This document shows, piece by piece, positions 5,202 through 27,486 of a stretch of DNA of 64,000 nucleotides. A program made the position numbers and the translations under genes. Origin of the DNA: Novosphingobium sp. RL4 (GTDB lineage Bacteria > Pseudomonadota > Alphaproteobacteria > Sphingomonadales > Sphingomonadaceae); the NCBI RefSeq assembly GCF_035658495.1, contig NZ_CP141945.1, positions 1,403,501 to 1,467,500 on the forward strand, read 5' to 3'. Every line of letters begins with the position of its first letter. The stretch's first letter is position 1. Under the pieces are notes generated by a model. That model was not told the DNA's origin and searched no databases. It saw nothing but the letters and a program-made list of their open reading frames with translations.

Positions 5202-5257
5202 GCGGCAAATCTTCCGGCATGGTTGACGGGAGCGCGTTCCTCTCGATAAATCGCTTC

Positions 5258-5272
5258 TGCGAATCATTATCA
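5258..5272. promoter_or_regulatory. Fur-like box upstream of the DUF6607 gene
   Basis: TGCGAATCATTATCA matches 12 of the 14 fixed positions of the 7-1-7 Fur palindrome TGATAAT-N-ATTATCA. It lies 161 bases before the DUF6607 start and just after moeA. Iron control of the gene is an inference. Confidence 0.6.
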
Positions 5273-5433
5273 AATCACTATCAAATATCGATGCAGGGCG
5301 TTGATCCGGTTCGCCCGCTCCGGCGATCGTGCCGGAATTGCCGCGTTCCCAAGCGTCGATGCAGTGAGGGGCCGGATCTTCGCCTGGCGGCGGGGTCTGC
5401 TGCTCGCTCGCTTGCGAAGAGGGTACGAAGAAG

Positions 5434-6438
5434 ATGAAGAGAATGATGCTCAAGTCGGCGCTGCTCGCGGCGACCCTGGCCGGCGGTCTGGCCCTTGCCG
5501 GACCTGCCATGGCGGACGGGCCGGTCGCCGGGCGTTCGGCGGAGGCGGAGGCTGCGGCGTTCGATGCGGACCGTGCTGCGATCCTTGCCATGGCGGGCAA
5601 TTACAAGGTCACCTTCGACATGCGCGAGACCACGCCATGGCGCGCCGATTACACGCCGATTCCGGGCAAGGTCTCGGGCGGGCACGAAGCGGTTCGCGTG
5701 ATCGAGGACAGCGGGCGGCGCATCGTGCTGCAGCACCTGCTCGTGGTGGACGAGGGCGACGGCAAGCAGATGGTCATCAAGCACTGGCGGCAGGACTGGA
5801 CGTACGAGCCGGAAAGCGTGCTGGTCTACGCGGGGAAGGGGCGCTGGAACGTCGAGGCCGTGCCCGCCGCCTTCCGCAAGGGGCGCTGGTCGCAGACGGT
5901 GTGGCAGACGGACGATTCCCCGCGCTATGGCGGCTGGGGGCAGTGGACCGAGGAAGGCGGGGTGCGCCGCTGGCGCAGCAACTGGACCTGGCGTCCGCTT
6001 GCCCGCCGCGATGCCGTGCGCAAGCCGCCCTATGACCGCTATCTCGCGATCAACCGCCATTCGCCGAGCCCCGCCGGGTGGATTCACTGGCAGGACAATA
6101 TCAAGGAGGGGCCTGAACCGGGTTCCGCCGATGGCAGGATCGTGCCCTTCGTGCAGGAATCGGTGCTGAACAGCTATGTGCGCGACGACAGCGTCAGCCT
6201 GGCCGCGGCCGACAGCTACTGGGCGGCGACGAAGGATTACTGGGCCGCGATCCGCACCGACTGGGACGAGGCGATCGCCCGCGACAAGGGCGTTTCCGTG
6301 GCAGAAGTGGCCGAAACCGGCTCTGCCAGCGGCGAGCGGCTGATGGGGCTCGCCGACGATATCCAGTCCGGCAAGGTCAGGCTGCCGCAGGCGGTGCAGC
6401 GCGGCAAGGCGGTGATCGCCGAAGTAACGCGCCGCTAG
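5434..6438 (+). CDS. DUF6607 family secreted protein
   Basis: The 334-residue product begins with a clear signal peptide (KR, hydrophobic stretch, then GPAMA before DGPVAG). The mature part is rich in Trp and Tyr and contains the conserved-looking runs TPWRADYTP, GGHEAVRVI, HWRQDWTYE and GWIHWQDN, which I associate with DUF6607. No catalytic motif is evident. ATG 5434 is preceded by a purine-rich GAAGAAG. A strong Fur-like box at 5258-5272 suggests expression under iron limitation, so a role in iron or heme handling in the periplasm is possible, though the function is not known. Confidence 0.75.
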   Translation: MKRMMLKSALLAATLAGGLALAGPAMADGPVAGRSAEAEAAAFDADRAAILAMAGNYKVTFDMRETTPWRADYTPIPGKVSGGHEAVRVIEDSGRRIVLQHLLVVDEGDGKQMVIKHWRQDWTYEPESVLVYAGKGRWNVEAVPAAFRKGRWSQTVWQTDDSPRYGGWGQWTEEGGVRRWRSNWTWRPLARRDAVRKPPYDRYLAINRHSPSPAGWIHWQDNIKEGPEPGSADGRIVPFVQESVLNSYVRDDSVSLAAADSYWAATKDYWAAIRTDWDEAIARDKGVSVAEVAETGSASGERLMGLADDIQSGKVRLPQAVQRGKAVIAEVTRR

Positions 6439-8518: not shown

Positions 8519-10651
8519 ATGCGGTCGAAGTTCCTTTCGGGCCTGACGGTCATGAGCGCGGCTCTGGCGGCCATGCCCGCCTTTGCGCAAAGCGTGCCGA
8601 CAGCGCCGCCGGTTGCGGAGAAGAAGCCCTATCAGGTGCCTTCTCCCGGCGGCCCGCGCGAGGATGACTATTACTGGCTGCGCGACGATACCCGCAAGAA
8701 CGCCGAGATGCTCTCCTACCTCGCCGCCGAAAACGCCTGGACCGATGCGCAGATGGCGCGGCTCAAGCCGTTGGCGCAGAAGCTTTACGAAGAGACCGTC
8801 TCGCATATCAAGCAGGACGACAGCTCCGTTCCCTATGACGACAACGGCTGGTCCTATGCGCGCCGTTTCGCCGCGGGCGCGGACTATCCGGTGAACGAAC
8901 GCCGCAAGGCGGGGACCACCGGCGCCTGGCAGGTGCTGTTCGATCAGCCCGCCATGGCGAAGGGGCACAGCTTCTTCTCGCTCGGCGACTTCGCGGTGAG
9001 CGACGACAATACCAAAGTCGCCTGGGCGGAGGATACCGTCGGTCGGCGGCAGTATGTCCTGCGGGTCAAGGACATCGCGACCGGCAAGGTCATGAGCGAC
9101 ACCGTCGGCAATGTGGAGCCGAATCTCGTATGGAGCGGGGACGGGCGCACCGTGCTCTATATCGCCAAGGACCCGGTGACCCTGCGCGGCTATCAGGTGA
9201 AGGCCCATGTGCTCGGCACTGACCCGGCGAGCGACCGGCTGCTCTACGAGGAGAAGGACGACACCTTCCAGATGGGCATCCTGCGCACGCGGGACAGCAA
9301 ATACGTCTGCGTGGTGGTGCAGAGCACCGTCAGCGACGAGCAGCGCTGCGCGCCTGCGGCCTCGCCCGCCCCGGCCGCCTTCACCACCATCGCCCCGCGC
9401 GAGAAGGAGTTCCGCTACTATGCCGAACACCTCGGCGATCGCTGGGTGATCCGCACCAATCGCGGCGCGAAGAACTACAAGCTGGTGACCCTTGCAGATG
9501 CCGGGGCGGCGAAGGGCGAGGCTGCTTGGAAGGATATCGCTCCCGCCAGCGACACCGTCTTCATCGAGGATTTCGCGCCGTTCGAGGGCTTCGTCGCCAT
9601 CGACCAGCGCGAAGGCGGCAACCGCATGATCCGCCTGCTGACCGATGCCGGAAAATCGATCCCGGTCGAGGCCGGCGAGCCTGCCTACCGGATGGCGCTA
9701 GACGTCAACAGGGTGCCGTCCTCGCGCTGGGTCCGCTATACTTACGGTTCTCTCGTCACGCCGACGACGACGATCGAGATCAATGCCGGAACCGGCGAGA
9801 AACGCGTGCTCAAGGTCACGCCGGTGCCGGGCTACGATCCCTCGAAATACGTGACCGAGCGGGTCTGGGCTACCGCGCGGGACGGAACCCGGGTGCCGGT
9901 GTCGCTGGTCCATGCCAGGGGCGTGAAGCGAGACGGCACTGCCCCGCTGTTCCAGTATGCCTACGGCAGCTACGGCTATTCGACCGATCCGGCGGTCGAT
10001 CCTTCGCGGATCGGGATGCTGGACCGGGGCGTGGTCTATGCCATCGCCCATATTCGCGGCGGGCAGGAAATGGGGCGCGGCTGGTACGACGACGGGCACC
10101 TGCTGAACAAGAAGAACACCTTCACCGACTTCATCGACGTGACCCGCTATCTCGTGGCGCAGGGCTACGGGGCGAAGGGCCGGGTGGCCGCGATGGGCGG
10201 CAGCGCGGGCGGGCTGCTGATGGGCGCCGTCGCCAACATGGCGCCGCAGGACTACAAGGCGATCGTCGCGCAAGTGCCGTTCGTGGACGTGGTGACGACG
10301 ATGCTCGACGCTTCGATCCCGCTCACCACTTTCGAATACGACGAATGGGGCAATCCCGCGGTCCAGCCCTATTACGACTACATGCTGAGCTATTCGCCCT
10401 ACGACAACGTGACCGCGAAAGCCTATCCCTCGCTGTTCGTATCGACCGGGCTGTGGGACAGCCAGGTCCAGTACTACGAACCGGCCAAGTGGGTCGCGAA
10501 GCTGCGCGCCACCAAGACCGATGCCAACCCGCTGCTGTTCCGCATCAACATGGAGGCCGGGCACGGCGGCAAGTCGGGCCGGTTCGAACGCTACCGCGAT
10601 TCGGCGGAATGGACGGCTTTCGTGCTGGACCAGCTCGGCGTTCCCCAATGA
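8519..10651 (+). CDS. S9 family peptidase, oligopeptidase B-like, exported
   Basis: The 710-residue serine peptidase has a signal peptide (MRSKFLSG ... MPAFAQ), so it should act in the periplasm. An N-terminal beta-propeller region is followed by the alpha/beta hydrolase domain. The nucleophile lies in [10 protein letters not shown] near residue 560, the aspartate near GLWDSQV and the histidine in [10 protein letters not shown]. The sequence [15 protein letters not shown] near the N terminus is typical of the PtrB/S9A family. The frame is open from a TTG at 8501, but ATG 8519 has GGGGG eight bases upstream. Oligopeptidase B cleaves after basic residues, though specificity cannot be read here. 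Confidence 0.9.
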
Positions 10652-15821: not shown

Positions 15822-16298
15822 TCAGCGCACGCGCACCTTGCGCGCCTGCATGAGCGTGAGCGCGATCATCAGCCGCGTGGAATGGATCGCGCCATCCAGC
15901 AGGGTGCCGCGCGGCTCCGCGCAGGCGAGCGTGACGGGGCGAAGTTCAGGCCCTTCGAGCAGGCTGACCATCAGCCGTTCGTCGGATGAGAGGCGGTGCG
16001 CAAGGCCCAGCCGCATCGGGCGGCCCAGCGCGGCTTCGAAGAGCAGGCAGAAACTGTCGATCACCGGCGCGAGCATGGCGCAGTCGAACAGATCGAGCCG
16101 GGCGGCGAGGCTGGGCTGGGCATGTTCGCCATCCTCGCGCGCACTGCGCCAGCACCGGGCGATGTCGACCAGCACGCTGGCGGGAAGGGTGCGGCGGGCA
16201 AAGGCGGGCTTGAAATCCTGCAGGGGCTCGGGATCGCCCGGAACGGAACTGCCGGAGCAGGACGCGCAAGGCACGGGAACGGGAAAATGAAAGGACAT
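15822..16298 (-). CDS. Hypothetical protein behind a Fur-like box
   Basis: The 158-residue product matches no family I recognise. It has an N-terminal CASC pair within a Pro/Ser-rich segment (PVPVPCASCSG) and a middle helical region (LDLFDCAMLAPVIDSFCLLF). The end is basic (ARKVRVR). There is no signal peptide or membrane segment. It lies alone between LysR and a TonB receptor on the minus strand, with a Fur-like palindrome 34 bases upstream of its ATG. The position suggests an iron-repressed cytoplasmic protein. The stop lies 3 bases from the convergent LysR stop. Confidence 0.65.
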   Translation of the reverse strand: MSFHFPVPVPCASCSGSSVPGDPEPLQDFKPAFARRTLPASVLVDIARCWRSAREDGEHAQPSLAARLDLFDCAMLAPVIDSFCLLFEAALGRPMRLGLAHRLSSDERLMVSLLEGPELRPVTLACAEPRGTLLDGAIHSTRLMIALTLMQARKVRVR

Positions 16299-16331
16299 AA
16301 CGGGGCACTCCAGGTCGCACCATTATGCTAA

Positions 16332-16346
16332 TGCAAATCATTCGCA
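16332..16346. promoter_or_regulatory. Fur-like box upstream of the 158-residue hypothetical gene
   Basis: TGCAAATCATTCGCA is a near-perfect palindrome matching 10 of 14 fixed positions of the 7-1-7 Fur consensus. It sits 34 bases upstream of the minus-strand gene at 16298 and could overlap its promoter. Confidence 0.55.
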
Positions 16347-16440
16347 AATAAAAGCCCCGAAGCCGTCGTCCCGGCGCTGGGCGCGCACGGGCCGGCTTGC
16401 CGGGCTGAGCCCGCGCCTGATCGGCCCGCACTGACCGGCC

Positions 16441-16528: not shown

Positions 16529-19288
16529 TCAGGGGCGGAAGCCGCCCGAAGGCCGTTGGCCGCCCGGAGGCGCGGTGAAGAACAGCTTGCGGAACGTGAG
16601 CTGGAACGCCCGGCCCACCGGGTCGAGGTAATAGGGCGAATAGGCGTAGGGCGTGTCGCCGTTGCCGTCGCGCACCTTCTGGCGGGAGTCGAGCAGGTTG
16701 GAGACCGAGAACGTCACGCGCGCGCCGCGCAGGAACGGGATCTTGTCCACCAGCTTGGGTTGCTGGCCGAGATCGGCGAAGAGCCGCAAGTCGAACTTGG
16801 CGAAATCGTCGAAGCGCAGCTTGGTCGCCGCATAGCCGTCCACGCCGTCCACCGTGGTGCCGCTTTGCCAGCTTCCGGTCAGGCGCATTCCGAGGCCGCT
16901 CTGCGAATAGCCGGTCTGGAGTTCCAGCTTGTGGCGGGGCGTGCCGCCGCTGCTGGCGCCGATGGTGCCGCCGTTGAGGAGATCGATCTCCGGCTGCCCA
17001 TCGCGCAGCACGACGCGGTCGGAGAAGACCCAGGTGTGGTAGAGCGAGAACGTCATGCGTCCGCCGCGCCCGCCGCCGGGCCCGCCGAAGCCGCGCGGAC
17101 CGCCGCCTCCGCCCGGACCGCCGAAGCCGCCGCCGGGGCGACCGCCGCCTTCACCGCCGCCGCCGCCCTCGCCGCTGCCGCCGCTGCCGCCCCCGGTGCT
17201 GCCAGGTCCGCGCGTGCCGGCATCAGTGCCGGTGGCGGCGCCGCCCTGCTGGGCCGCGGCGTTCTCGCCTTCGCCCTGCGGCGGCGGGCCGCCTTCGCCG
17301 CCTTCCCGGCCAGCCCCGTCCCTGCCCATTCCGTCCCTGCCGGGGAACCCGTTCGGGAAGCGGCGTTGGAAGCTCTCGCGCATGGCGTCGATCTGGGATT
17401 GCGGGGTCTTGAGCGTCTTGGTGAAAGTGATCCCCATGCGCAGCTGCGACTTGTCCTCGCTGGCGATGTTGATCGGGCGCAGGTCCATCGAGACGAGATT
17501 GCCATCGGCATCGCGGGTGAAGCGCTCGGGGAAGGCCGCGACCACGCCGGGCGTCGCGCCGGGCAGGGCGACGACCTGGTTACGCTGCCAGGTGCGGTTG
17601 TAATCGAGGTTGAGGGTGATGTTCGGGTCGTTCAGCCGGAACGTGCCGCCAAGCCGCAAGTTGCGCAGGCGCGAGCCTTCGAGGTCGGGGTTGCCGCCGG
17701 TCAGCGCGGTGACGCGGACCGACTGGCCGGTCGTATAGTCGAACAGGTCGAAGTTGGCGGTGGAGATCACCGCGTCGCCCAGCTGTGCGGCGCTGGGCGC
17801 GCTCTGGTCGTCGCGGTAGGCGGCGATCAGGCTGAAGCGGTTGGTCGGGCTCCAGTTGAAGCCGCCCCCCAGCGTGCGCAGGGTGCCGAAGTCGCCGATC
17901 TGGCGCACCGCCGCGTTGGCGTTGATCGACATGCGCCCGGCGCCGGGGAACAGCGGCACGCCCCGGCTGCTGAGCGGGATGTCGATATTGACCGACGCCT
18001 CGCCCTGATCGCGGTCGACGCCGGTGTCGCGGTCGATGCCGAGCCGGGTCACGGTGCTGTCGGACCGGTCGAAAGTGCCGCCGAGCTTGAAGGTCGTGGT
18101 GATCCCGCCGGCGGGCATCTGCAGCGGCGTGGTCGTTGCCACGAAGTTCAGGTCGACGCTGTCGGTACTGTTGCGGGTCTGGTTGGGAGCCTGGAAATCG
18201 AGGAATTCGCTCGCGATCGACAGGGAGGGATCGGCGAGCGGATCGCCGGCGGCCACGGCGGCGGCATAGTCGGCCAGGTTGAGCGGGCGCTGCTGGATCG
18301 AACGGGTGTCGGTGCGGTCGTAATTGCCGGTGACCGTCCACTGCCACTTCTGCGTGGTGCCGTTGAGCGTCAGCCCGAGGTGGCCGGTCTGCTTGCTGTT
18401 GGTGTTGGTCAGCGGCGAGAGGCCGTCCACGGTGGGCAGGAACGTCTCGTCCTCGGCCCCGCTGGCGTAAGGCGTGCCGCCCGGGATCGTCACCGAGGAC
18501 AGGGCGCTGCCGCGCAGGGCGCGGCTGTCGGTCGTGGTCAGCTCGCCGTTCACCGTGGCCAGCCAGACGTGGGAGAGCGGCTTGGCCCAGGTGCCGGTGA
18601 GCGTGAAGGCCTGCGTTTCCGGGCGCAGCGTGCGATTGCGGCCGTCGCCGCCGCTGGTGGCAAGGCCGCGCTGGGCCTCGGTGATGGAATTGGCCTGCGA
18701 GTAGTTCACGTCGAGGTTGAGCCGCTCGCCCCGGCGGATCGCGAGGAAGTCCGCCTTGGGATTGACGCTCAGCCCGTCCCCCTGGGTGCCGAGCTTGGCG
18801 CCGCCTTCGAGGGTATAGGCGCGGAACCGCTGGCGCAGCACGATGTTGACGACCTTTTGCGTGGCGGCATAGCCATACTTGAGGGCGACTTCCTCGGGCA
18901 GGATCTCGACCCGCTGGATCGCTTCGGTGGGGATCGTGCCGACTTCACGGAAGCTGGCGATGCGGCGTCCTTCGAGCAGGACGACGGGCGAACCGCCGCC
19001 CGCGCTTTCGGTTTGCGGGGCGAGTTCCTCAAGCAGTTCGGTGACGCTGGAAACGCCAAGGGCGCGCACGTCGCCGGCATCGAAGGTCACTTCGGGGGCG
19101 ATGTCGCCGATTACCGAGCCGCGCGGCTTCTGGCCCGAGACGACGATCTCGTTCTCCTCGCCGGGTTCCTCGGGCGTGGATTGCGTGGACGTGGTGGCCC
19201 CGGTGGAGCCTGACTGGGCATAAGCGGAAGCACCGGGCCACGCGAACAGGGCAGCCGACGCCATCAGGCCGAAACGAAATCGCACCAC
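16529..19288 (-). CDS. TonB-dependent receptor with glycine-rich insert
   Basis: The 919-residue outer-membrane receptor has a signal peptide (ending ASAYAQ), a plug domain (ALGVSSVTELLEELAPQ, VLLEGRRIASF, IQRVEILPEEVALKYGYAA) and a long beta-barrel ending in LTFRKLFF. A striking insert at about residues 650-743 is almost all Gly, Pro, Arg and Glu, including the runs GGSGGSGEGGGGGEGG and GGPGGGGGPRGFGG. The start is GTG 19288 behind GAGGG. The ligand is unknown. The neighbouring iron genes hint at a metal chelate, but such receptors also import sugars or peptides. No clear Fur box was seen upstream. Confidence 0.88.
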   Translation of the reverse strand: MVRFRFGLMASAALFAWPGASAYAQSGSTGATTSTQSTPEEPGEENEIVVSGQKPRGSVIGDIAPEVTFDAGDVRALGVSSVTELLEELAPQTESAGGGSPVVLLEGRRIASFREVGTIPTEAIQRVEILPEEVALKYGYAATQKVVNIVLRQRFRAYTLEGGAKLGTQGDGLSVNPKADFLAIRRGERLNLDVNYSQANSITEAQRGLATSGGDGRNRTLRPETQAFTLTGTWAKPLSHVWLATVNGELTTTDSRALRGSALSSVTIPGGTPYASGAEDETFLPTVDGLSPLTNTNSKQTGHLGLTLNGTTQKWQWTVTGNYDRTDTRSIQQRPLNLADYAAAVAAGDPLADPSLSIASEFLDFQAPNQTRNSTDSVDLNFVATTTPLQMPAGGITTTFKLGGTFDRSDSTVTRLGIDRDTGVDRDQGEASVNIDIPLSSRGVPLFPGAGRMSINANAAVRQIGDFGTLRTLGGGFNWSPTNRFSLIAAYRDDQSAPSAAQLGDAVISTANFDLFDYTTGQSVRVTALTGGNPDLEGSRLRNLRLGGTFRLNDPNITLNLDYNRTWQRNQVVALPGATPGVVAAFPERFTRDADGNLVSMDLRPINIASEDKSQLRMGITFTKTLKTPQSQIDAMRESFQRRFPNGFPGRDGMGRDGAGREGGEGGPPPQGEGENAAAQQGGAATGTDAGTRGPGSTGGGSGGSGEGGGGGEGGGRPGGGFGGPGGGGGPRGFGGPGGGRGGRMTFSLYHTWVFSDRVVLRDGQPEIDLLNGGTIGASSGGTPRHKLELQTGYSQSGLGMRLTGSWQSGTTVDGVDGYAATKLRFDDFAKFDLRLFADLGQQPKLVDKIPFLRGARVTFSVSNLLDSRQKVRDGNGDTPYAYSPYYLDPVGRAFQLTFRKLFFTAPPGGQRPSGGFRP

Positions 19289-19469: not shown

Positions 19470-20591
19470 CTAGCGCGTGCCGGTCACCCGTTCGCGCGTC
19501 ACTTCGGCCACTGTGGCGCAGCCGAGCTGGGCCATCGCCGCTTCGAGTTCGGTGCGCAGCAGGTGAATCGCATGGGCGACGCCCGGCATCCCCGCCACGG
19601 CGAGGGCATGAAGCTGCGGGCGGCCGAGCAGCACCGCGCGTGCACCCAGCGCCAGCGCCTTGACCATGTCGGTGCCGGAGCGGAAGCCGCCGTCCGCCAG
19701 CAGGGGCACGCGGCCCCCGGTTGCCCCTGCCACATCCTCGATCACGTCGAGCACGCTGGGCAGCCCGTCAAGCACGCGGCCGCCATGGTTGGAGACGATG
19801 AGCCCGTCTGCGCCCATGTCCACCGCGCGGGCGGCGTCCTCTCCCAGCACCATGCCCTTGACCAGCACGGGAAGCGAGGTGGCCTCCCGCAGCCAGGCGA
19901 GGTCTTCCCAGCGCGGCGCGGTATCGGCGAGCGGGGTGCCGAACAGGATGCGCCCGCCCAGCGTTGCGGTCTGCCGTGGCAGCGGCATCCCTGCGAGGTT
20001 CGCCGCCGAGACGCCGGGCGGCAGGGTCATCCCCGAAAGCTTGATGGCGGCATCGATGGTGAGCACGATCGCCTCGTATCCCGCCGCCTCGGCGCGGCGG
20101 ACGAGGGCGAGGCTGTGTTCGCGGTCCGGCTGGAGATAGAGCTGGAACCAGAGCGGCGCGGCTTGCCGGCCCAGTTCGCGGGCAAAGGAGCGGGCGGCTT
20201 CGGCGATCTCCTCCAGCGGCACGCTGGACAGGGTGCTGACGATCGTGCCGGTATCTAGCGCGGTGGCGGCGCGCACCACCGCGAGTTCGCCGTCGGGATG
20301 GGCAAGGCGCTGGTAGGCCACCGGGGCCATCATCAGCGGCGCTGCGTGGTTGCGGCCGAACAGGTCGATGGCGGTGCCGCCGCCGCGCAGGTCGGCCATG
20401 GCGCGCGGAAGCAGGGCCCGGCGCGAGAAGGCCTCGCGGTTGGCGCGCAGGGTCTGTCCGGTGCCCGAACCTTCCTCGATATGATGCCACGCCTCGGCGG
20501 AAAGATGGGCGGGGGCGCGGCGTTCGTAATCGGCAAGGCTGCGCAGGTCGGGCGGGATCTGCGTCAGCGCGGGAAGCGGCGCGTCGCTCAC
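19470..20591 (-). CDS. FMN-dependent alpha-hydroxy-acid oxidase/dehydrogenase
   Basis: The 373-residue protein belongs to the lactate/glycolate oxidase family. It shows the FMN-binding stretch LMMAPVAYQRLAHPDGE, the catalytic histidine region VSNHGGRVLDGLPS near residue 270 and the phosphate-binding end ADGGFRSGTDMVKALALGARAVLLGRP. I set the start at GTG 20591, where it overlaps the PiuC stop in GTGA. The longer open frame merely reads through piuC in another frame. It is the last gene of a receptor-piuC-oxidase operon. A hydroxy-acid oxidase here could degrade a hydroxycarboxylate siderophore part, but that is speculation. Confidence 0.88.
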   Translation of the reverse strand: MSDAPLPALTQIPPDLRSLADYERRAPAHLSAEAWHHIEEGSGTGQTLRANREAFSRRALLPRAMADLRGGGTAIDLFGRNHAAPLMMAPVAYQRLAHPDGELAVVRAATALDTGTIVSTLSSVPLEEIAEAARSFARELGRQAAPLWFQLYLQPDREHSLALVRRAEAAGYEAIVLTIDAAIKLSGMTLPPGVSAANLAGMPLPRQTATLGGRILFGTPLADTAPRWEDLAWLREATSLPVLVKGMVLGEDAARAVDMGADGLIVSNHGGRVLDGLPSVLDVIEDVAGATGGRVPLLADGGFRSGTDMVKALALGARAVLLGRPQLHALAVAGMPGVAHAIHLLRTELEAAMAQLGCATVAEVTRERVTGTR

Positions 20592-21268
20592 GTCACCGAC
20601 CACTGGCGCAGCAGGTTGTGGTAGACCTGCGTGAGCGTGTCGATCGAGCCATGTTCGGGATGGTCGCCCGCGATGCCCTGTATCGCGCCGTCGAGTTCGA
20701 GCAGCAGGCGGCGGCGTTCGGGCGCGGCGACGAAGCTCTGGGTCCAGAAGAACGAGACGAAGCGCGTGCCGCGTGTCACCGGCTCCACGCGGTGGAGGCT
20801 GCTGCCGGGATAGACCACCAGATGCCCGGCGGGAAGCTTGACGGTGTGGCTGCCGAACATGTCCTCGATCACCAGTTCGCCGCCGTCGTATTCGTCGGGA
20901 TCGCTGAGGAACAGGGTGCTGGAGATGTCGCTGCGCAAGTGTTCGCCGGTGCCGGGGATCGGGAAGATCGCGTTGTCGACGTGGTTGCCGTAGTGGCCGC
21001 GCCCGTCGTAGCGGCTGAAGCGGGGCTGGAGCACGCGGCTCGGCAGGGCGGCGGCGATGAACAGCGGCGTCTGCATGAGGCGGGCCAGCACGCGGTCCGC
21101 AAGCTGCTGCGCCAGCGGATGGCCCAGCGGAAGCTGCTCGTTGTCCTTGACCTGCGCGGCGCGATGACCGGCGGTGGCGCGGCCGTCCGCCCAGTCGGCG
21201 CCTTCCAGCGCCTCTCGGAATGCGCGCACTTCGTCGGCGGAGAAAAGTTCGGGAATTTCGATGACCAT
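20588..21268 (-). CDS. piuC: PKHD-type Fe(II)/2-oxoglutarate hydroxylase, PiuC-like
   Basis: The 226-residue product equals the usual PiuC length when the ATG at 21268 is used (MVIEIPELFSADEVRAFR). The Fe(II) triad is H96-x-D98 (NHVDNAIF) and H159 (SSLHRVEPV), with R169 as the likely 2-oxoglutarate ligand. PiuC-type genes typically sit next to TonB siderophore receptors of the PiuA/Fiu group and are iron-regulated. The biochemical role remains unclear. Here the receptor lies upstream and the FMN oxidase overlaps downstream by 4 bases. A terminator and a tandem repeat separate it from the receptor. Confidence 0.92.
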   Translation of the reverse strand: MVIEIPELFSADEVRAFREALEGADWADGRATAGHRAAQVKDNEQLPLGHPLAQQLADRVLARLMQTPLFIAAALPSRVLQPRFSRYDGRGHYGNHVDNAIFPIPGTGEHLRSDISSTLFLSDPDEYDGGELVIEDMFGSHTVKLPAGHLVVYPGSSLHRVEPVTRGTRFVSFFWTQSFVAAPERRRLLLELDGAIQGIAGDHPEHGSIDTLTQVYHNLLRQWSVT

Positions 21269-21310
21269 GGGCGCTCTTCTTGCCGAGGACGGCGCTCCTG
21301 ACAATGACTC

Positions 21311-21428: not shown

Positions 21429-23828
21429 TTACATCTTCGCGGTGAGGGTCAGGACCGCCGAGCGGGCATCGCCCGGTGTGGCCCAGCCGTTGTTGCGGAT
21501 GCGCTGGTAGTAGAGCTTGTTGCCGATGTTCTTGACGTTGAGCTGCGCCGAGAGGTTGGGGCTGAAGTCATAGGACAGGAAGCCCTGGTGGATCAGGTAG
21601 TCGTCCGAGGAGATCGCCTTGACGGCGGCTGCTGTCGCGGTGGCGGGAACGGCGGCGGAAAGCAGGAACTTGCCCTGATAGGTGAAGCCGTAGCCCAGCG
21701 TCAGGCCGAACGGCAGGCGGTAGGTCGTGAACAGGCTGGCCGAATGCTTCGGGGTCTGGGTCAGGTACTGGCCGGCACCCGGATTGGGGTTGGTGGGAGT
21801 GTTGGTGCAGGTGCGCGTGCCGGTGACGGCGCCGGGGTTGGCAAGGCAGTAGTCCGACACCGACTGGAGCAGCTTGCTCTTGAGGTAGGTGTAATTGGTC
21901 GTGATCGACCAGTCGGGCGTGATCTTGCCGCTGGCCCCCAGCGCGATGCCGTCCACCCGCGACTTGCCGTCGAGCTGCTGGTTGGGAACGGCGGGATCGC
22001 CCGAGATCACGGCGTACTTGTCGCGCTCGTTGCGGAATGCCGCCGCCGTCAGCAGCAGGCCGCCGTCGAACAGTTCGGCCTTGGCGCCGATCTCGTAGTT
22101 CTGGGCGCTTTCCGGGTTCACGTTGCAGGTCGAGGTGGTGGCGCCGTTCTCGCCCGCCGTGGTGCAGGAACCGTTGACCGAATTCTTGGAGGGCGTGCGC
22201 GAATTGCCATAGGCCGCATAGAGGCTGACCGCCTCGACCGGCTTGTAGTTCAGGCCGACGCGGTAGGAGAACAGCGTGTCGGCACTGCGCGTCTCGGTGC
22301 CCGGCGTGACCTGGCCCTGCGTCACGGTGGACGTGGTGGAGGCGGCGATGGTGTCGGCGCGGGTCGTGCCGACGTTGCGCTCGATACGGGCGCCGGCGCT
22401 GAGTTCCAGCTTGCCCAGCTTCATCGTGTCGAACAGGTAGGCGGCCACGTTGGTCTGCTCGCCCAGCGTGTGGCCGGTGCGGATGAAGTTGACCGGGCCG
22501 GTGTAGAGGTTGCTGCCGTACGTGAACCCGGTCGGACCGGTCACGACATCGTTCGGGTTGTCGATGTTGATGAGCGGAAGCGTGACCGAAGTGCCATCGG
22601 CATTGCGCAGCGAGTTGCCGTTGTTCAGGTCATACTTTTCCCAGGTGGCCGAGCCGCCCAGATCGATGGTGTGCTCGATCGCGCCGGTGTTGAACACGGC
22701 CTTGATGTCGAACTGGTCGAACAGCAGCTGGTTGCGGATGTCGCGCGTGGTGCCGCGGGGGCCTGAAGGCTGATAGTAACCGGCCGGCACAGTGCCGCAG
22801 CTGCCGCCGGTTGGCGTCACGCCGGTGGTCAGGCAGTAGGTCCCCTGCGGCGGATTGACCACGGTAAGCTGGCGCGAATCCTGCCAGCGGGCGAGATTGC
22901 GGATCGAGACCGTGTCGCTGAACGCATGATCGAAGATCGCGGTCATCTGGTCGATGTTGATGCGTTGCTTGTCGACGTTGCGATAGCCGAAGTAGTCGCT
23001 GCGGTGAACGCCGGGCACGGTGCCGCTGTAATAGGGCACGCCGTACTGCGGGACGTTGTCGTCCTCCTGGTGGAAGTACTGGAGCGTCAGGCTGGTCGGG
23101 CTGTCGATGCCGATGGTGACGGAGGGCGCCACGCCCCAGCGCTTGTAGTCTTCCACGTCGCGGCCGGGCACGTCGTTGCGGTGCCACATGCCGTTGAGGC
23201 GGAAGGCGACGAGGTCGTTCACGCGCTTGTTGAGATCAACGGTGGCGCGGTAATAATTGTCGGTGCCGACGCCGGCCGTGGCGACATAGGCATCATCGGC
23301 CTTGGGGCGCTTGCTGACGATGTTGATGTTGCCGCCGGTCGAACCGGCGCCGGAAACCACCGAGTTCGCGCCGTTGGTGACTTCGATCTGCTCAAGGTTG
23401 AACGGATCGGTGCGCGTCACTTGCGCGCTGTCGCGCACGCCGTCGATGGTGATGTCGTTCGCGGCGCTGTAGCCGCGGAAGGTGATGTTGTCGCCGGGGC
23501 CGGTGCCCGCTTCGCCCGCGCCGAAAGTGATGCCGGGGACGGTGGAGAGCACGTCGCGCAGGGTCAGCAGGTTCTGCTGCTCGATCACTTCGCTGGAAAG
23601 CACGGTGATGGTCTGCGGCGTATCGAGCACGGGGCGGGTGCGCTTGGGGGATTCGAGCTTGCGGCCGGGCTGCTCGTCAATCGCGGAATCGCTGACGGTG
23701 ACGCCGCCGAGCACGCGCTGGCCGTCGGACTGCTGGGCATGGGCGGGGGCAACGCTGAACACGGGCGCGATGCAGGAAAGCGCAAGGAACGTGCGGCGCG
23801 CAGCCGAGGACGAAGGCTTGGAAGACAT
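21429..23828 (-). CDS. TonB-dependent siderophore receptor, Fiu/PiuA-like
   Basis: The 799-residue outer-membrane receptor has a signal peptide (ending SVAPAHAQ), a TonB-box-like segment near GGVTVSD and a plug domain (DTPQTITVLSSEVIEQQN, LRDVLSTVPGITFGAGE, NITFRGYSAANDITIDGVRD). The barrel closes with the usual aromatic-rich end. These plug motifs are typical of catecholate-type siderophore receptors. The open frame runs to 23891, but ATG 23828 follows GAGGGG and starts the signal peptide. A Fur-like box lies at 23870-23884. The gene heads an operon with piuC and an FMN oxidase. Confidence 0.94.
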   Translation of the reverse strand: MSSKPSSSAARRTFLALSCIAPVFSVAPAHAQQSDGQRVLGGVTVSDSAIDEQPGRKLESPKRTRPVLDTPQTITVLSSEVIEQQNLLTLRDVLSTVPGITFGAGEAGTGPGDNITFRGYSAANDITIDGVRDSAQVTRTDPFNLEQIEVTNGANSVVSGAGSTGGNINIVSKRPKADDAYVATAGVGTDNYYRATVDLNKRVNDLVAFRLNGMWHRNDVPGRDVEDYKRWGVAPSVTIGIDSPTSLTLQYFHQEDDNVPQYGVPYYSGTVPGVHRSDYFGYRNVDKQRINIDQMTAIFDHAFSDTVSIRNLARWQDSRQLTVVNPPQGTYCLTTGVTPTGGSCGTVPAGYYQPSGPRGTTRDIRNQLLFDQFDIKAVFNTGAIEHTIDLGGSATWEKYDLNNGNSLRNADGTSVTLPLINIDNPNDVVTGPTGFTYGSNLYTGPVNFIRTGHTLGEQTNVAAYLFDTMKLGKLELSAGARIERNVGTTRADTIAASTTSTVTQGQVTPGTETRSADTLFSYRVGLNYKPVEAVSLYAAYGNSRTPSKNSVNGSCTTAGENGATTSTCNVNPESAQNYEIGAKAELFDGGLLLTAAAFRNERDKYAVISGDPAVPNQQLDGKSRVDGIALGASGKITPDWSITTNYTYLKSKLLQSVSDYCLANPGAVTGTRTCTNTPTNPNPGAGQYLTQTPKHSASLFTTYRLPFGLTLGYGFTYQGKFLLSAAVPATATAAAVKAISSDDYLIHQGFLSYDFSPNLSAQLNVKNIGNKLYYQRIRNNGWATPGDARSAVLTLTAKM

Positions 23829-23869
23829 AATTCCCCTCATGTTTGGAATTCCCTTGGCGGCTCCGATAA

Positions 23870-23884
23870 TGAGAGTCATTCGCA
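23870..23884. promoter_or_regulatory. Fur-like box upstream of the siderophore receptor
   Basis: TGAGAGTCATTCGCA matches 10 of 14 fixed positions of the 7-1-7 Fur palindrome and lies 42 bases upstream of the receptor ATG. A flanking GATAAT precedes it. The right half ATTCGCA equals that of the box at 16332-16346. Confidence 0.6.
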
Positions 23885-23968
23885 TTCGCAATATACTTTG
23901 TTACAAGTGTAACGCTTATGTTGCAAAATCGTCGGGGCGGGGGTTCTCGAAGGGGCGGGTAAGGCCGG

Positions 23969-24964
23969 TCAGGGCGCGACGAGGAGGGCCGCAAGGGCGG
24001 GGCTGATCCACTCCTCGATCCGGCCCTCGCCTTGGTCTCCCGCGCGGCACAGCGCCCGAACCGCCAGATTCTCGCGGGTGGCCCGTTCGCGCATGGCCTC
24101 GGGCGGCTCGACACAGAGCGCAGTGGCCCAGGCATCGGCCAGCATGGCGCTGCGATGGACCACGCTGACGGCCATGGCATGTTCCACGGGCAGGGCGCTG
24201 CGCGGGTCGATGGTGTGGCGGCCGCGCACATAGTCTCCCGAGGTCGCCACGGCGAGCTGGTGCAGGGCGATGCGTAAGGGCGGAATATCGCAGGTCGGCG
24301 TTTCGAGATCGACCCACCAGGGATCGCCGTCCGGCTTCATCCCCGAACCGACGAGCTCACCGCCGATCTCGACAAGGAAATGGTTGCAGCCCCTTTCGCG
24401 CAGCAGCGCGGCAAGGGCATCGACGGCATGGCCCTTGGCGATGCCGGAAAGGTCCAGCCGCAGGCCGCCGGGCTGGAGCAGGCGGTGGCTGTCGGCATCG
24501 AAGGTCAGCTTCCGCCAGCCGGAAACCGCACGGGCCCCGGCAAGCGCGTCCGCACTCGGCGGTGCCGCGACCGGGACGGGGCCGTAACCCCAAAGATCGA
24601 CGATGGCACCGATCGCGGGATCGAAGGCGGCATCGGTCACTTCGGCGATGGCAAACCCCGCGGTCATGACACCGGCAAAGGCGGGCGGCAGCGAGATCCA
24701 CGTTCCCGCCGCAGCGCGATTGAACCGGCCGAGCACCGAGTCCGCCCGCCAGTGACTCATCTGGGCAAGAATATCCTCGAGCCGGGCCTCGATCGCCTCG
24801 ACGATCGCGGTCCGGTCGAAGTTTTCGGGCGCCGCCAGGCGGAGGCGCCAGGTTGTTCCCATGGTCTCCCCGCCGAGGTCGATGACCGGGGCGTCCTGTC
24901 GCCAGTCGGCAAGGACGCCCGGATCGATGTCGAGCGGCACGGCCAGTCGCAAGGGGGAGGCCAA
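23969..24964 (-). CDS. apbE: FAD:protein FMN transferase
   Basis: ApbE-type enzymes attach FMN covalently to Ser/Thr of periplasmic proteins using FAD. The 331-residue product contains the family segments GETMGTTWRLRL near residue 32, MSHWRADSVLGRFNRA near 70, DAAFDPAIGAIVDLWGYGP near 110 and LDLSGIAKGHAVDALA near 170. The late segment DYVRGRHTIDPRSALP near 245 is also typical. No clear signal peptide or lipobox is seen, so localisation is uncertain. It is the last gene of the PepSY-DUF2271-DUF4198 cluster, and DUF2271 carries a matching acceptor motif. Confidence 0.93.
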   Translation of the reverse strand: MASPLRLAVPLDIDPGVLADWRQDAPVIDLGGETMGTTWRLRLAAPENFDRTAIVEAIEARLEDILAQMSHWRADSVLGRFNRAAAGTWISLPPAFAGVMTAGFAIAEVTDAAFDPAIGAIVDLWGYGPVPVAAPPSADALAGARAVSGWRKLTFDADSHRLLQPGGLRLDLSGIAKGHAVDALAALLRERGCNHFLVEIGGELVGSGMKPDGDPWWVDLETPTCDIPPLRIALHQLAVATSGDYVRGRHTIDPRSALPVEHAMAVSVVHRSAMLADAWATALCVEPPEAMRERATRENLAVRALCRAGDQGEGRIEEWISPALAALLVAP

Positions 24965-25002
24965 GGGAGGCTTGGTGTCGTTCAGGTCGCTTTAGGTGCC
25001 GT

Positions 25003-25938
25003 TCAGGGCGCGACCACTTCGACGGTGGCGGTGTAGCTCATGCGGCGCTCGGTGGCGCGCTTTTCGCTGGGCTTGTTGTCGCTGGCGCTGGCGTTGATCC
25101 AGTACATTCCGGCGACCGGCCACTTGACGTGGAGCACGCCGTCGGCGCCGGTCGTCAGTTCCTGGGCCTGTTCGGCCTCGCGGTACTTCTTGCTGCCGGG
25201 GACCACGGTAACCTTGACGCCGGCGGCGGGCTTGCCGTCGATCAGGAAGCGGAACTGCCCCTCTTCGTTGGACACCAGCTCGTCCGGGTGCGTGATCGGA
25301 TCGATTTCCAGGCCCTTGCCGGTGGGCGTGAAGACGGTCTTCGTCGGCGCATCGGCGGTCACGTAGATGTAGTTGCCGGAAATCGATTCGGTCAGCTTCA
25401 CGTCGGTGGCATTGGCCGGAATGTCCGCCACGGTTGCGACACTGCGCACCGGCGCGCCGCCGGCGCCGGGCGCCCCTCCGGGACCACCCGCACCGGGACC
25501 ACCCGCACCGGGACCACCCGCACCGGGGCCGCCTGCACCGGGACCGCCGGCGCCCATCGGGCGGCCGCGTCCGCCCAGGCGCCAGTCTTCGCCGTTCACC
25601 TTGAAGCTGCCCATGATCGCCGAGCGCTGGGTGCCGATCTTCCAGGTGCCGGGCTTGTCGATCTTGACGTCGAACGTCGCGCGGTAACGGCCGGTGGCCG
25701 GGTTCTCGATCTTGCCTTCGCTGCCGTCAGGAGCCCAGACGGTGACCTGTTCGGGGCTCATCGGGAAATGGTCGGGATAGAACAGATCGTTCGATACCGC
25801 CGCATCGACGGTCACGTATTCGCTGGTGCCGGCGAGTGTGGTGGTGGACGGCAGGAGCCACTGGCGGTGCGCCGAAGCGGGCGAGGCAAGAGCGGCGGCC
25901 ACGGCGGCCGAGGCGATCAGGATATGGCTGTAGCGCAT
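25003..25938 (-). CDS. DUF4198 periplasmic protein with Gly/Pro repeat
   Basis: The 311-residue product has a signal peptide (MRYSHILIASAAVAAALASPASA), and the predicted mature protein starts HRQWLLPS. The His near the mature N terminus and the beta-rich domains (VTVDAAVSNDLFYPDHFP, TKTVFTPTGKGLEIDP, FLIDGKPAAGVKVTVVPG) fit DUF4198. Members are proposed to bind metal or act beside TonB uptake systems. Residues about 129-154 are GAGGP-type repeats encoded by a 15-bp tandem repeat. The stop is 39 bases before apbE. Function is unknown, but the context is flavin-linked redox and iron. Confidence 0.85.
   Translation of the reverse strand: MRYSHILIASAAVAAALASPASAHRQWLLPSTTTLAGTSEYVTVDAAVSNDLFYPDHFPMSPEQVTVWAPDGSEGKIENPATGRYRATFDVKIDKPGTWKIGTQRSAIMGSFKVNGEDWRLGGRGRPMGAGGPGAGGPGAGGPGAGGPGAGGPGGAPGAGGAPVRSVATVADIPANATDVKLTESISGNYIYVTADAPTKTVFTPTGKGLEIDPITHPDELVSNEEGQFRFLIDGKPAAGVKVTVVPGSKKYREAEQAQELTTGADGVLHVKWPVAGMYWINASASDNKPSEKRATERRMSYTATVEVVAP
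25478..25552. repeat. 15-bp tandem repeat inside the DUF4198 gene
   Basis: Three exact copies of CCGGGACCACCCGCA (25478-25522) are followed by two degenerate copies to 25552. In frame this encodes repeated GAGGP pentapeptides, a flexible linker between the domains. Copy number could vary between strains without breaking the frame. Confidence 0.9.
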
Positions 25939-25979
25939 GTCATGTCCTTGAAAAATCGTGAATGTTCGAGAATTCGAGA

Positions 25980-26483
25980 TCAGCGGATGGTGATCGCACC
26001 CAGTTCGGAACTGCCCGATGCCGAGCCGGCCTTCTTGACGGGAACGGTGACCGGAACCGAGACGAGTTCGCGCCCGCCGGTTTCACGCGCGGCTTCCACT
26101 TTGAAGACATACTGTCCCGCCGGAAGATTGGCGGGCAGGGGGATCTGGTAGGTGCCGGGCGCGCGGGTGGCGCCGCTCAGGCCGTCTGCGGGCAGGTTGA
26201 GCGAACGGCCGCCCTTGCGCCACCATGTGCGCAGGTCCGCCAGCCACTTCGTGCCGGGCTCGCGGCCGGCCTTCTTGACGTCGTACCACACGAAAACGGT
26301 GCGGGCCGGGCCGCCGGCGGCTGGTTCGAGCCAGCCGACGACGTAGGGACGATGGTATTCCGCGACGTTGATGCGCGGGATCGTCACGCTCACGGTCGCC
26401 GCGGCAGCCGGGGTGGCGATGGTCCCGGCGACGAGCGCCGGGGCCAGAAGTGGAAGCGCTGGCAGTACCTTCGATGTCGTCAT
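25980..26483 (-). CDS. DUF2271 periplasmic protein, predicted covalent FMN carrier
   Basis: The 167-residue product has a signal peptide (ending TPAAAA) and a compact beta-rich mature part. Residues 100-106 read DGLSGAT, followed by RAPG. This matches the D-x-x-S/T-G-A-T acceptor motif to which ApbE attaches FMN in NqrC and RnfG, so T106 is the expected modified residue. apbE is two genes downstream. I infer that this protein carries bound FMN and shuttles electrons in the periplasm. It follows the PepSY membrane gene by 15 bases, so they are probably co-transcribed. Confidence 0.87.
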   Translation of the reverse strand: MTTSKVLPALPLLAPALVAGTIATPAAAATVSVTIPRINVAEYHRPYVVGWLEPAAGGPARTVFVWYDVKKAGREPGTKWLADLRTWWRKGGRSLNLPADGLSGATRAPGTYQIPLPANLPAGQYVFKVEAARETGGRELVSVPVTVPVKKAGSASGSSELGAITIR

Positions 26484-26498
26484 CGGTGCCTTCTTGTC

Positions 26499-27284
26499 TC
26501 AGTGGATGAATATCAGGGCGATCGCGAGCGGGATCAGCAGGCTCAGCCCGACCAGCGGCCAGGTCGAGGGCCGATGTCTGGCGTGAAGCTGGAGGAGGAA
26601 CAGGCCGGTCACCGTGAACACGACGCAGGCCGCCGCGAAGAGATCGATGAACCAGAACCACACCGAGCCGGTGTTGCGGCCCTTGTGCAGGTCGTTGAGG
26701 TAGGAAACCGTGCCGCGATTGGTCACTTCGGCGGAAATCGCGCCGTTGGAACGGTCGATGCTGACCCATGCGTCGCGGCCCGGGCCGGGCATGGCGACAT
26801 AGACCTCGTCCTCGGCGGACCAGTCCGCCGGGAAACCGGCGGGATCGAGGGGAACGGCGGCGGCCACTGCCCTGGCGACATTGGCGGGAAGCGGCGCGGT
26901 GCCGTCTCCGGCGGGGGGCAGGCTACGCAGGAGGCCGGGCGCGATCTTGCCTTCGCTCTGTACCACCTTGGGTTCCGCGCTGATCGATGCCGCATGGTTG
27001 AGCGTGATGCCGGTGATGGCGAACAGGAACATTCCCGCAAGCGAAACCGCGGCGCTCACCCAGTGCCAGGTGTGAAGCTGCTTGAGCCAGAAGGCGCGGG
27101 CCTTCTTGTTCTTCTTCTTCGCGGGAGCGCGGCGGGCGGCGGCAGGACGCACGGTTTGCCCGGGATCTGCAGGCGGTTCTGTCCGCGCAGCAGGCGGTGC
27201 ACGGTCCGCCCCATCAAGCACATCGAGACTTTCGCCGTTACCGCCCAACTTGCACGTTTCCCTTGGTCTACGGGAGTCGCGCAA
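26499..27284 (-). CDS. PepSY-associated membrane-helix protein
   Basis: The frame gives up to 261 residues. It contains a first membrane helix (FWLKQLHTWHWVSAAVSLAGMFLFAITGITLNHAAS), a periplasmic PepSY-like region (VYVAMPGPGRDAWVSIDRSNGAIS) and two C-terminal helices (FWFIDLFAAACVVFTVTGLFLL, WPLVGLSLLIPLAIALIF). Histidines in LHTWHW, LNH and the C-terminal LHARHRP could ligate heme, as in related PepSY-TM ferric reductases. TTG 27284 is the furthest start and lacks a ribosome-binding site; the first 70 residues are Pro/Arg-rich, so the real start may be internal. It heads the DUF2271-DUF4198-ApbE cluster and is the probable electron entry from the membrane. Confidence 0.8.
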   Translation of the reverse strand: MRDSRRPRETCKLGGNGESLDVLDGADRAPPAARTEPPADPGQTVRPAAARRAPAKKKNKKARAFWLKQLHTWHWVSAAVSLAGMFLFAITGITLNHAASISAEPKVVQSEGKIAPGLLRSLPPAGDGTAPLPANVARAVAAAVPLDPAGFPADWSAEDEVYVAMPGPGRDAWVSIDRSNGAISAEVTNRGTVSYLNDLHKGRNTGSVWFWFIDLFAAACVVFTVTGLFLLQLHARHRPSTWPLVGLSLLIPLAIALIFIH

Positions 27285-27336
27285 AAGCGATGCGGAATCG
27301 AGTCCCGGCCCCCTGTGCCGCTGCCATTATCGCAAG

Positions 27337-27351
27337 TGCGAATGCCTCGCA
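27337..27351. promoter_or_regulatory. Weak Fur-like palindrome upstream of the PepSY gene
   Basis: TGCGAATGCCTCGCA has perfect TGCGA/TCGCA arms but matches only 8 of 14 fixed positions of the Fur consensus. Its left half TGCGAAT equals that of the box at 5258-5272. It lies about 53 bases upstream of the furthest PepSY start. Confidence 0.35.
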
Positions 27352-27486
27352 ATAACAAAGCGCAAATCGAGGTGAAGGGATCGTGCAAGCGGCGAATGCC
27401 GCCGGATGCCGAACCGGCTTCCGGCGGCAGGTCTGCCGACAAGCGCCCAGGGTGGGACTTTGCGCGTGCCGGCAGGATGTCGGGGA

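Follow-up and report, generated by a model that had tools for sequence, protein, structure and literature searches.

Known flavinylated PepSY systems and the Novosphingobium locus

The closest described systems are the PepSY-like clusters of Meheust (2021; PMC8238504), which reports 3220 of them, 2833 with DUF2271 and 1500 with DUF4198, and proposes that they reduce iron and siderophores. The same study showed flavinylation of a DUF2271 protein from Amantichitinum ursilacus by its cognate ApbE, with a T-to-A control, by co-expressing signal-truncated DUF2271 with ApbE in E. coli. In Caulobacter crescentus, CCNA_03155-03159 (CC_3059-3063) encode transporter/PepSY, DUF2271, DUF4198, and ApbE proteins, in this order, and additionally a flavoprotein reductase as the fifth; this operon is controlled by Fur, with a strong Fur/iron response (PMC3751524), and transposon insertions in its genes lower fitness with EDTA (PMC12004947). 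Alteromonas DUF2271/DUF4198 genes also respond to iron (PMC7190382), and structural context for such systems is given in PMC11334425. Here, we describe a cluster of this type in a 64,000-nucleotide stretch of the Novosphingobium sp. RL4 genome (contig NZ_CP141945.1, positions 1,403,501 to 1,467,500; hereafter, the window), and we focus on its ApbE, which has no signal peptide, and on the DUF2271 protein, which carries a Sec-type signal.

The genome consists of two contigs (5.45 Mb in total), and the window lies on the smaller one (1.82 Mb). Four adjoining genes on the minus strand encode, in transcription order, PepSY_TM_like_2, DUF2271, DUF4198, and ApbE proteins, all matching their families far above cut-off (Table 1). 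This agrees with a preliminary description made from the sequence alone, which had also placed ApbE two genes downstream of DUF2271 and the cluster beside a siderophore receptor. These are the four families of the Meheust system (PF16357/PF03929, PF10029 with an [ST]GA[ST] motif, PF10670, and ApbE), and the two are alike in their association with iron and a TonB receptor. The PepSY protein, which matches PF03929 (2e-11) as well as PF16357, occurs here with PF10029 and PF02424, as PepSY-like proteins do in flavinylation-associated clusters. Unlike part of that family, the window cluster has no NAD-binding donor gene, which the family does not require, and unlike the Caulobacter operon, it lacks the fifth gene. 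A profile search of the genome yielded a single ApbE, a single DUF2271, and a single PF16357 protein and found no FMN_bind protein.

The locus adds one more example of a widespread module for which iron reduction has already been proposed, and the gene set is not new. The preliminary description had called it not well described; that view does not stand beside published accounts of the set, its flavinylation, and its iron link (PMC8238504), of Fur control (PMC3751524), and of EDTA fitness (PMC12004947). The rest of its interpretation, namely an FMN-acceptor motif, a PepSY electron route, and a connection to iron, finds support in the conserved residues, the order of the genes, a Fur-like box, and studies of relatives. 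To the existing picture we add a metal-binding fold for DUF4198 and a Fur-like box that 57 of the 58 loci compared within the order share.

For comparison, we assembled 159 loci: 80 named loci, chosen as the best 80 among 136 relatives (Novosphingobium sp. ST904 is the named locus closest to the window), 78 places above the DUF2271 cut-off in even samples of the order (147 genomes) and the phylum (398 genomes), window excluded, and the window itself. Our own profiles detected DUF2271 in 150 of the 159, and 105 of these 150 have the order PepSY-DUF2271-DUF4198-ApbE. Residue conservation was counted over the 112 loci that have all four genes.

Flavinylation motif of DUF2271 and signal peptides of ApbE

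The DUF2271 protein has the sequence DGLSGAT at residues 100-106, where the preliminary description had recognized an ApbE-type FMN acceptor, and it satisfies the [ST]GA[ST] pattern of PepSY-like flavinylated systems. T106 and G101 are found in 100% of loci and D100 in 91%; because the motif is conserved across the four-gene loci, it is not a chance match. Together with the published flavinylation of a relative, this points to T106 as the probable FMN attachment site. ApbE requires just the 7-residue motif, with terminal tags working best (PMC12052999). No solved relative of DUF2271 was found by sequence.

The window ApbE, a predicted FMN transferase, has the ApbE domain and fold: the best solved ApbE by sequence matches at E 2.5e-44, and the structural model (mean pLDDT 96, N-terminal tail included) matches solved ApbEs. 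It has neither the signal peptide nor the lipobox of periplasmic lipoprotein ApbEs, a contrast with its exported likely target that the preliminary description had passed over. Ahead of the domain, the first possible start leaves room for 31 residues, among which no hydrophobic stretch is free of charges, and the reading frame is closed by a stop nine codons upstream of that start. Comparison with relatives favors a TTG at 24952 as the start, yielding MRLAVPLDIDPG... In the model, the tail forms a strand (residues 6-8) and a helix (15-18), with a block pLDDT of 85-98. In two plasmid records, the start annotated for ApbE likewise gives a signal-less form.

This pattern extends across the sampled loci. 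With a home-made signal-peptide score (our own scorer, not SignalP), the cut-off of 1.7 gives positives in 124 of 151 DUF2271 proteins, 139 of 140 DUF4198 proteins, and 16 of 138 ApbEs, and in 1 of 72 PiuC proteins, the cytosolic control; at 1.5, the counts are 140/151, 139/140, 19/138, and 1/72. Among stand-alone ApbEs beside DUF2271, 114 of 122 fall under the cut-off (41 of 43 score as signal-less in the phylum sample alone). Eight exceed it: L151 is a clear lipoprotein, and L078, L086, L090, L093, L096, L099, and L135 pass through a hydrophobic, conserved tail. ApbE-DUF2271 fusions have a signal in 7/7 cases.

Genomes with a single ApbE give the sharpest comparison. Where that ApbE is stand-alone and clustered with DUF2271, it scores as signal-less in 36/36 cases, a set that excludes fusions (in G360, the sole ApbE is fused to DUF2271 and bears a signal) and also L135 and L151, which exceed the cut-off in the phylum sample and whose genomes have two ApbEs. 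Where the only ApbE is remote from DUF2271, a signal is present in 13/13. The DUF2271 proteins carry a Sec-type signal in both groups (35/35 testable clustered, 12/12 testable remote, with one per set missed by our profile). All 74 further DUF2271 genomes searched possess an ApbE. Of the ApbEs located away from DUF2271 in these genomes (n = 51), 40 have a signal and the other 11 lack one; ApbE-like proteins of the signal-less kind thus occur in other contexts too.

An ApbE tree of 104 sequences, subsampled from the named loci, places cluster ApbEs on one side (support 92/99, slightly below the tool's mark for firm support), L151 among them, and the fusions apart (100/100). L151 (genome G522), the sole stand-alone cluster ApbE with a clear lipobox, sits at the base of the PepSY-cluster group. 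Its genome also encodes an ApbE-DUF2271 fusion (L183), and this ApbE could mark either a gain of the signal or an older state. Twelve loci (L188-L194, L197-L199, L201, and L212) have DUF2271 with no PepSY_TM_like_2 nearby; their ApbEs score as signal-less and form a tree group of their own.

Three other arrangements were considered and rejected. Tat export of folded, flavinylated DUF2271 finds the RRx[FLVIMWY] motif in just 3/149 proteins (a simple pattern search, not TatP). Readthrough or fusion from DUF4198 into ApbE as an export route disagrees with the reading frame of ApbE, which, measured from the DUF4198 stop, varies across loci among all three possibilities (72, 26, and 19 of 117). A second, periplasmic ApbE elsewhere is ruled out at the sensitivity of the search, which found one ApbE in the window genome.

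Proposed flavinylation before export and electron route

Because most clustered stand-alone ApbEs score as signal-less while DUF2271 keeps its Sec-type signal, we infer that flavinylation precedes export. In the mechanism that we favor, and hold to be somewhat more probable than its negation when taken as a whole, the cluster is an iron-starvation-induced electron-transfer module. Cytosolic ApbE would draw FAD from the cytosolic pool and attach FMN at Thr106 while the DUF2271 precursor is still unfolded; the precursor would then be exported via Sec and fold in the periplasm. Two b-type hemes in the PepSY protein would relay electrons that come from an inner donor, and the flavin of DUF2271 would receive them and reduce ferric chelates imported by the neighboring TonB receptor. 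The metal set free would be bound by DUF4198 close to the histidine at its mature N-terminus, with Fe(II) entering through FeoB, which is encoded elsewhere in the genome.

The general form of this proposal is more tentative. From signal predictions across the sampled loci, there is a nearly even chance that most DUF2271 operons with their own stand-alone ApbE flavinylate the precursor in the cytosol, the FMN-bearing chain crossing via Sec, and that single-ApbE genomes with a remote gene use a signal-bearing, mostly lipoprotein form. Exported redox proteins would then be flavinylated in two compartment modes, one of which has no need for FAD export. If many ApbEs act cytosolically on Sec substrates, it would be necessary to rethink whether FAD has to be exported, whether modification comes before or after export, and how far Sec can accommodate chains that bear a cofactor. 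The locus by itself changes little; the compartment question is what would matter.

Cytosolic ApbEs are known for cytosolic targets (PMC12052999), and the same review describes ApbE flavinylation of exported proteins as periplasmic. In the parts of the literature covered by our searches, we came across no discussion of ApbEs that lack a signal in DUF2271 clusters, which the gene-by-gene signal-peptide annotation of Meheust may already show, and, in a search on Sec pore size and flavinylation before export, no report of flavinylation before export. SecYEG reportedly opens to about 22 Å (PMC5963308).

The preliminary description had suggested a membrane PepSY protein with histidines as the electron route, and these histidines are kept in 96-100% of loci (H74 1.00, H97 0.96, H200 1.00, H234 0.98, and C-terminal H261 1.00). 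Heme binding is accordingly a prediction from these conserved residues and the literature. H261, the last residue (window positions 26499-26504), is a histidine in 112/112 loci and is possibly a fifth heme or metal ligand on the periplasmic face. A sequence search with the PepSY protein did not find FoxB. A flavodoxin/NAD-binding reductase gene directly follows ApbE in 51 of 117 PepSY+DUF2271+ApbE loci, and within the window's order solely in L182. Elsewhere, the genome encodes a PepSY_TM-flavodoxin-NAD-binding fusion (an 892-aa frame) and other PepSY_TM proteins, one of which may feed the module.

DUF4198 is a predicted metal binder. Its model matches Zcp (PDB 9MHI-9MHN; Zn-, Cu-, and Co-bound structures) and the Ni-bound Ideonella sakaiensis DUF4198 (PDB 9GCB, PMC12537917), sharing their fold at 13-16% identity, and metal binding has been shown for these relatives. 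A23 (1.00) and H24 (0.99) are conserved, and His24 would therefore be the first mature residue, with the cleavage site predicted by eye. In this, the protein resembles the Ideonella DUF4198, a metal protein with an N-terminal histidine directly after the signal peptide. H57, a candidate second ligand, is also conserved (0.97).

Searching the regions upstream of PepSY in the 58 loci of the order, window included, for a palindromic motif yielded TATTGCGAATcATTCGCAATA, a conserved 21-bp palindrome that resembles a Fur box. In 57 of the 58 upstream regions, the top site reaches 16.6 to 30.3 bits (L207 fails); this count is made on the motif's own learning set, which includes many closely related sequences, with no held-out set. 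The best score in 20 mononucleotide-shuffled windows is 17.0 bits, above the L099 site (16.6 bits). In the window, the PepSY site scores 25.9 bits at 27334; sites outside the learning set score 24.1 at 23867, 30.3 at 16329, and 20.5 at 5255.

Weighing of alternatives

Several observations weigh against the mechanism proposed above. The seven stand-alone ApbEs with hydrophobic tails (five from Massilia, plus L135 and L099) score 1.72-2.27; the Massilia DUF2271 signals inspected (L070 and L090) reach just 1.51, below the five Massilia tails, and the ApbEs of the Massilia group may thus have a weak signal. The ApbEs of L143, L070, and L084 are barely under the cut-off, that of L182 has a hydrophobic stretch with no basic start, and that of L151 has its lipobox despite sitting in a PepSY-type cluster. 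The tree supports few independent events, because of which the Fisher value (4e-13) overstates the evidence. Cysteine content proved a weak cytosolic marker: the initial difference between signal-less and signal-bearing ApbEs (2.9 versus 0.5 cysteines per domain) became smaller once 23 more signal-bearing ApbEs (mean 1.7) were added. Sec needs unfolded substrates, and the literature covered by our search yielded nothing on FMN-bearing chains. With other targets, a cytosolic truncated ApbE failed to replace the native enzyme in an apbE knock-out (PMC12052999). The window cluster contains no gene for an inner electron donor, the flavodoxin-reductase being missing after ApbE. Finally, whereas the window ApbE has no signal peptide, Meheust 2021 terms the ApbE of its tested pair "signal peptide-truncated" (PMC8238504), a label that, taken by its wording rather than by sequence comparison, implies that the A. 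ursilacus ApbE had a signal. The ApbE of Chitinimonas L071 scores as signal-less. We take its family, Chitinibacteraceae, to be that of A. ursilacus.

That label and the Massilia tails, which are signal-like, would also fit a route in which ApbE reaches the periplasm with no classical signal, its conserved R-[VIL]-x-[VI]-P tail serving as a non-classical export signal, and flavinylation is periplasmic. There is precedent in the signal-less SodA of Rhizobium leguminosarum, which is recognized by Sec (PMC5963308), and the tail pattern is matched in 93 of 113 PepSY-cluster ApbEs. However, 20 of the 113 miss it (about six by spacing alone), many of the tails carry acidic residues, the tail is modeled as an ordered part of the fold, and classical signals are kept in all ApbE-DUF2271 fusions and all sole remote ApbEs; we regard this route as unlikely. 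If ApbE instead stays in the cytosol, it could serve a different, cytosolic target, with DUF2271 modified weakly or not at all, much as the Klebsiella pneumoniae ApbE, which like the window ApbE has no signal peptide, modifies cytosolic fumarate reductase (cited in PMC12052999). The likely target in the window differs in carrying a Sec-type signal. We give this reading very little weight, given the single ApbE and absence of an FMN_bind protein in the genome search, the presence of ApbE in 74/74 further DUF2271 genomes, the invariance of Thr106, and the modification of a cognate DUF2271 by a relative's ApbE (PMC8238504). The metal is a separate matter. In the closest solved folds of DUF4198, the bound metal is Ni, Zn, Co, or Cu, and two Caulobacter homologs show a change in a zur mutant as well (PMC4176598), so that DUF4198 might set the metal and the module handle one of these instead of iron. 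Against this stand the Fur-like box, the siderophore-type receptor, and the PiuC neighbor at the window locus, together with the strong Fur/iron response of the Caulobacter operon (PMC3751524), and handling of a metal other than iron seems rather improbable.

Neighboring genes and other Fur-like sites

Table 1. Features of the flavinylation-associated cluster and adjoining genes in the window
Feature	Position	Strand	Basis
PepSY_TM_like_2 membrane protein, predicted di-heme transmembrane electron conduit	26499..27284	-	PF16357 1.4e-71; 261 aa as listed, true start perhaps further in
DUF2271, Sec-type signal peptide, predicted covalent-FMN carrier	25980..26483	-	PF10029 7.6e-39; signal score 2.16
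DGLSGAT flavinylation motif, FMN expected on T106	26166..26186	-	Sequence; T106 in 112/112 loci
Periplasmic DUF4198 protein, predicted to bind metal, mature N-terminus predicted at His24	25003..25938	-	PF10670 6.5e-48
ApbE FAD:protein FMN transferase without signal peptide	23969..24964	-	PF02424 2.2e-66
Fur-like palindromic box upstream of PepSY gene	27334..27354	.	25.9 bits
Fur-like box between apbE and TonB receptor gene	23867..23887	.	24.1 bits
TonB-dependent siderophore-type receptor (Fiu/CciT-like)	21429..23891	-	TIGR01783 226.9 bits, cut-off 223.5; PF00593, PF07715
PKHD-type Fe(II)/2OG dioxygenase (PiuC/YbiX/CciO-like)	20588..21304	-	NF003975 324 bits, cut-off 180

Genes for a TonB receptor and then a PKHD dioxygenase lie 3' of ApbE in the same direction. 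The receptor passes the TonB-siderophore cut-off; its best NCBIfam score is against Fiu, yet under the cut-off of the Fiu family. A Fiu-like TonB receptor also stands beside a PKHD dioxygenase in Caulobacter CciT-CciO (PMC12004947) and in the Fiu-YbiX and PiuA-PiuC pairs. In the window, the pair is directly downstream of the flavin module, and its likeness to CciT-CciO is one of gene content. On plasmids of Sphingomonas parapaucimobilis and Methylobacterium currus, the genes form a single run (receptor-dioxygenase-PepSY-DUF2271-DUF4198-ApbE), which ties the receptor/dioxygenase pair to the flavin module. Among loci with PepSY and DUF2271, a PiuC homolog is found in 53 of 79 of the named set (window included) and in 19 of 56 other sampled loci.

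Directly after the PiuC-type gene, positions 19470-20564 (minus strand) encode an FMN-dependent hydroxy-acid dehydrogenase/oxidase (PF01070, 3.7e-109), and in Novosphingobium resinovorum (L050) the PiuC match is likewise followed directly by a similar gene (9164-10288). A link to siderophore or lactate chemistry is possible. A 919-aa frame (16529-19288, minus strand) resembles an outer-membrane receptor that carries a long insert rich in glycine, but it matches no Pfam or NCBIfam family. The strongest Fur-like box of the window (16329-16349) lies just upstream of a 158-aa frame (15822-16298, minus strand) that has no Pfam or NCBIfam match, and the box at 5255-5275 lies upstream of a gene for a DUF6607 protein (5434-6438, plus strand).

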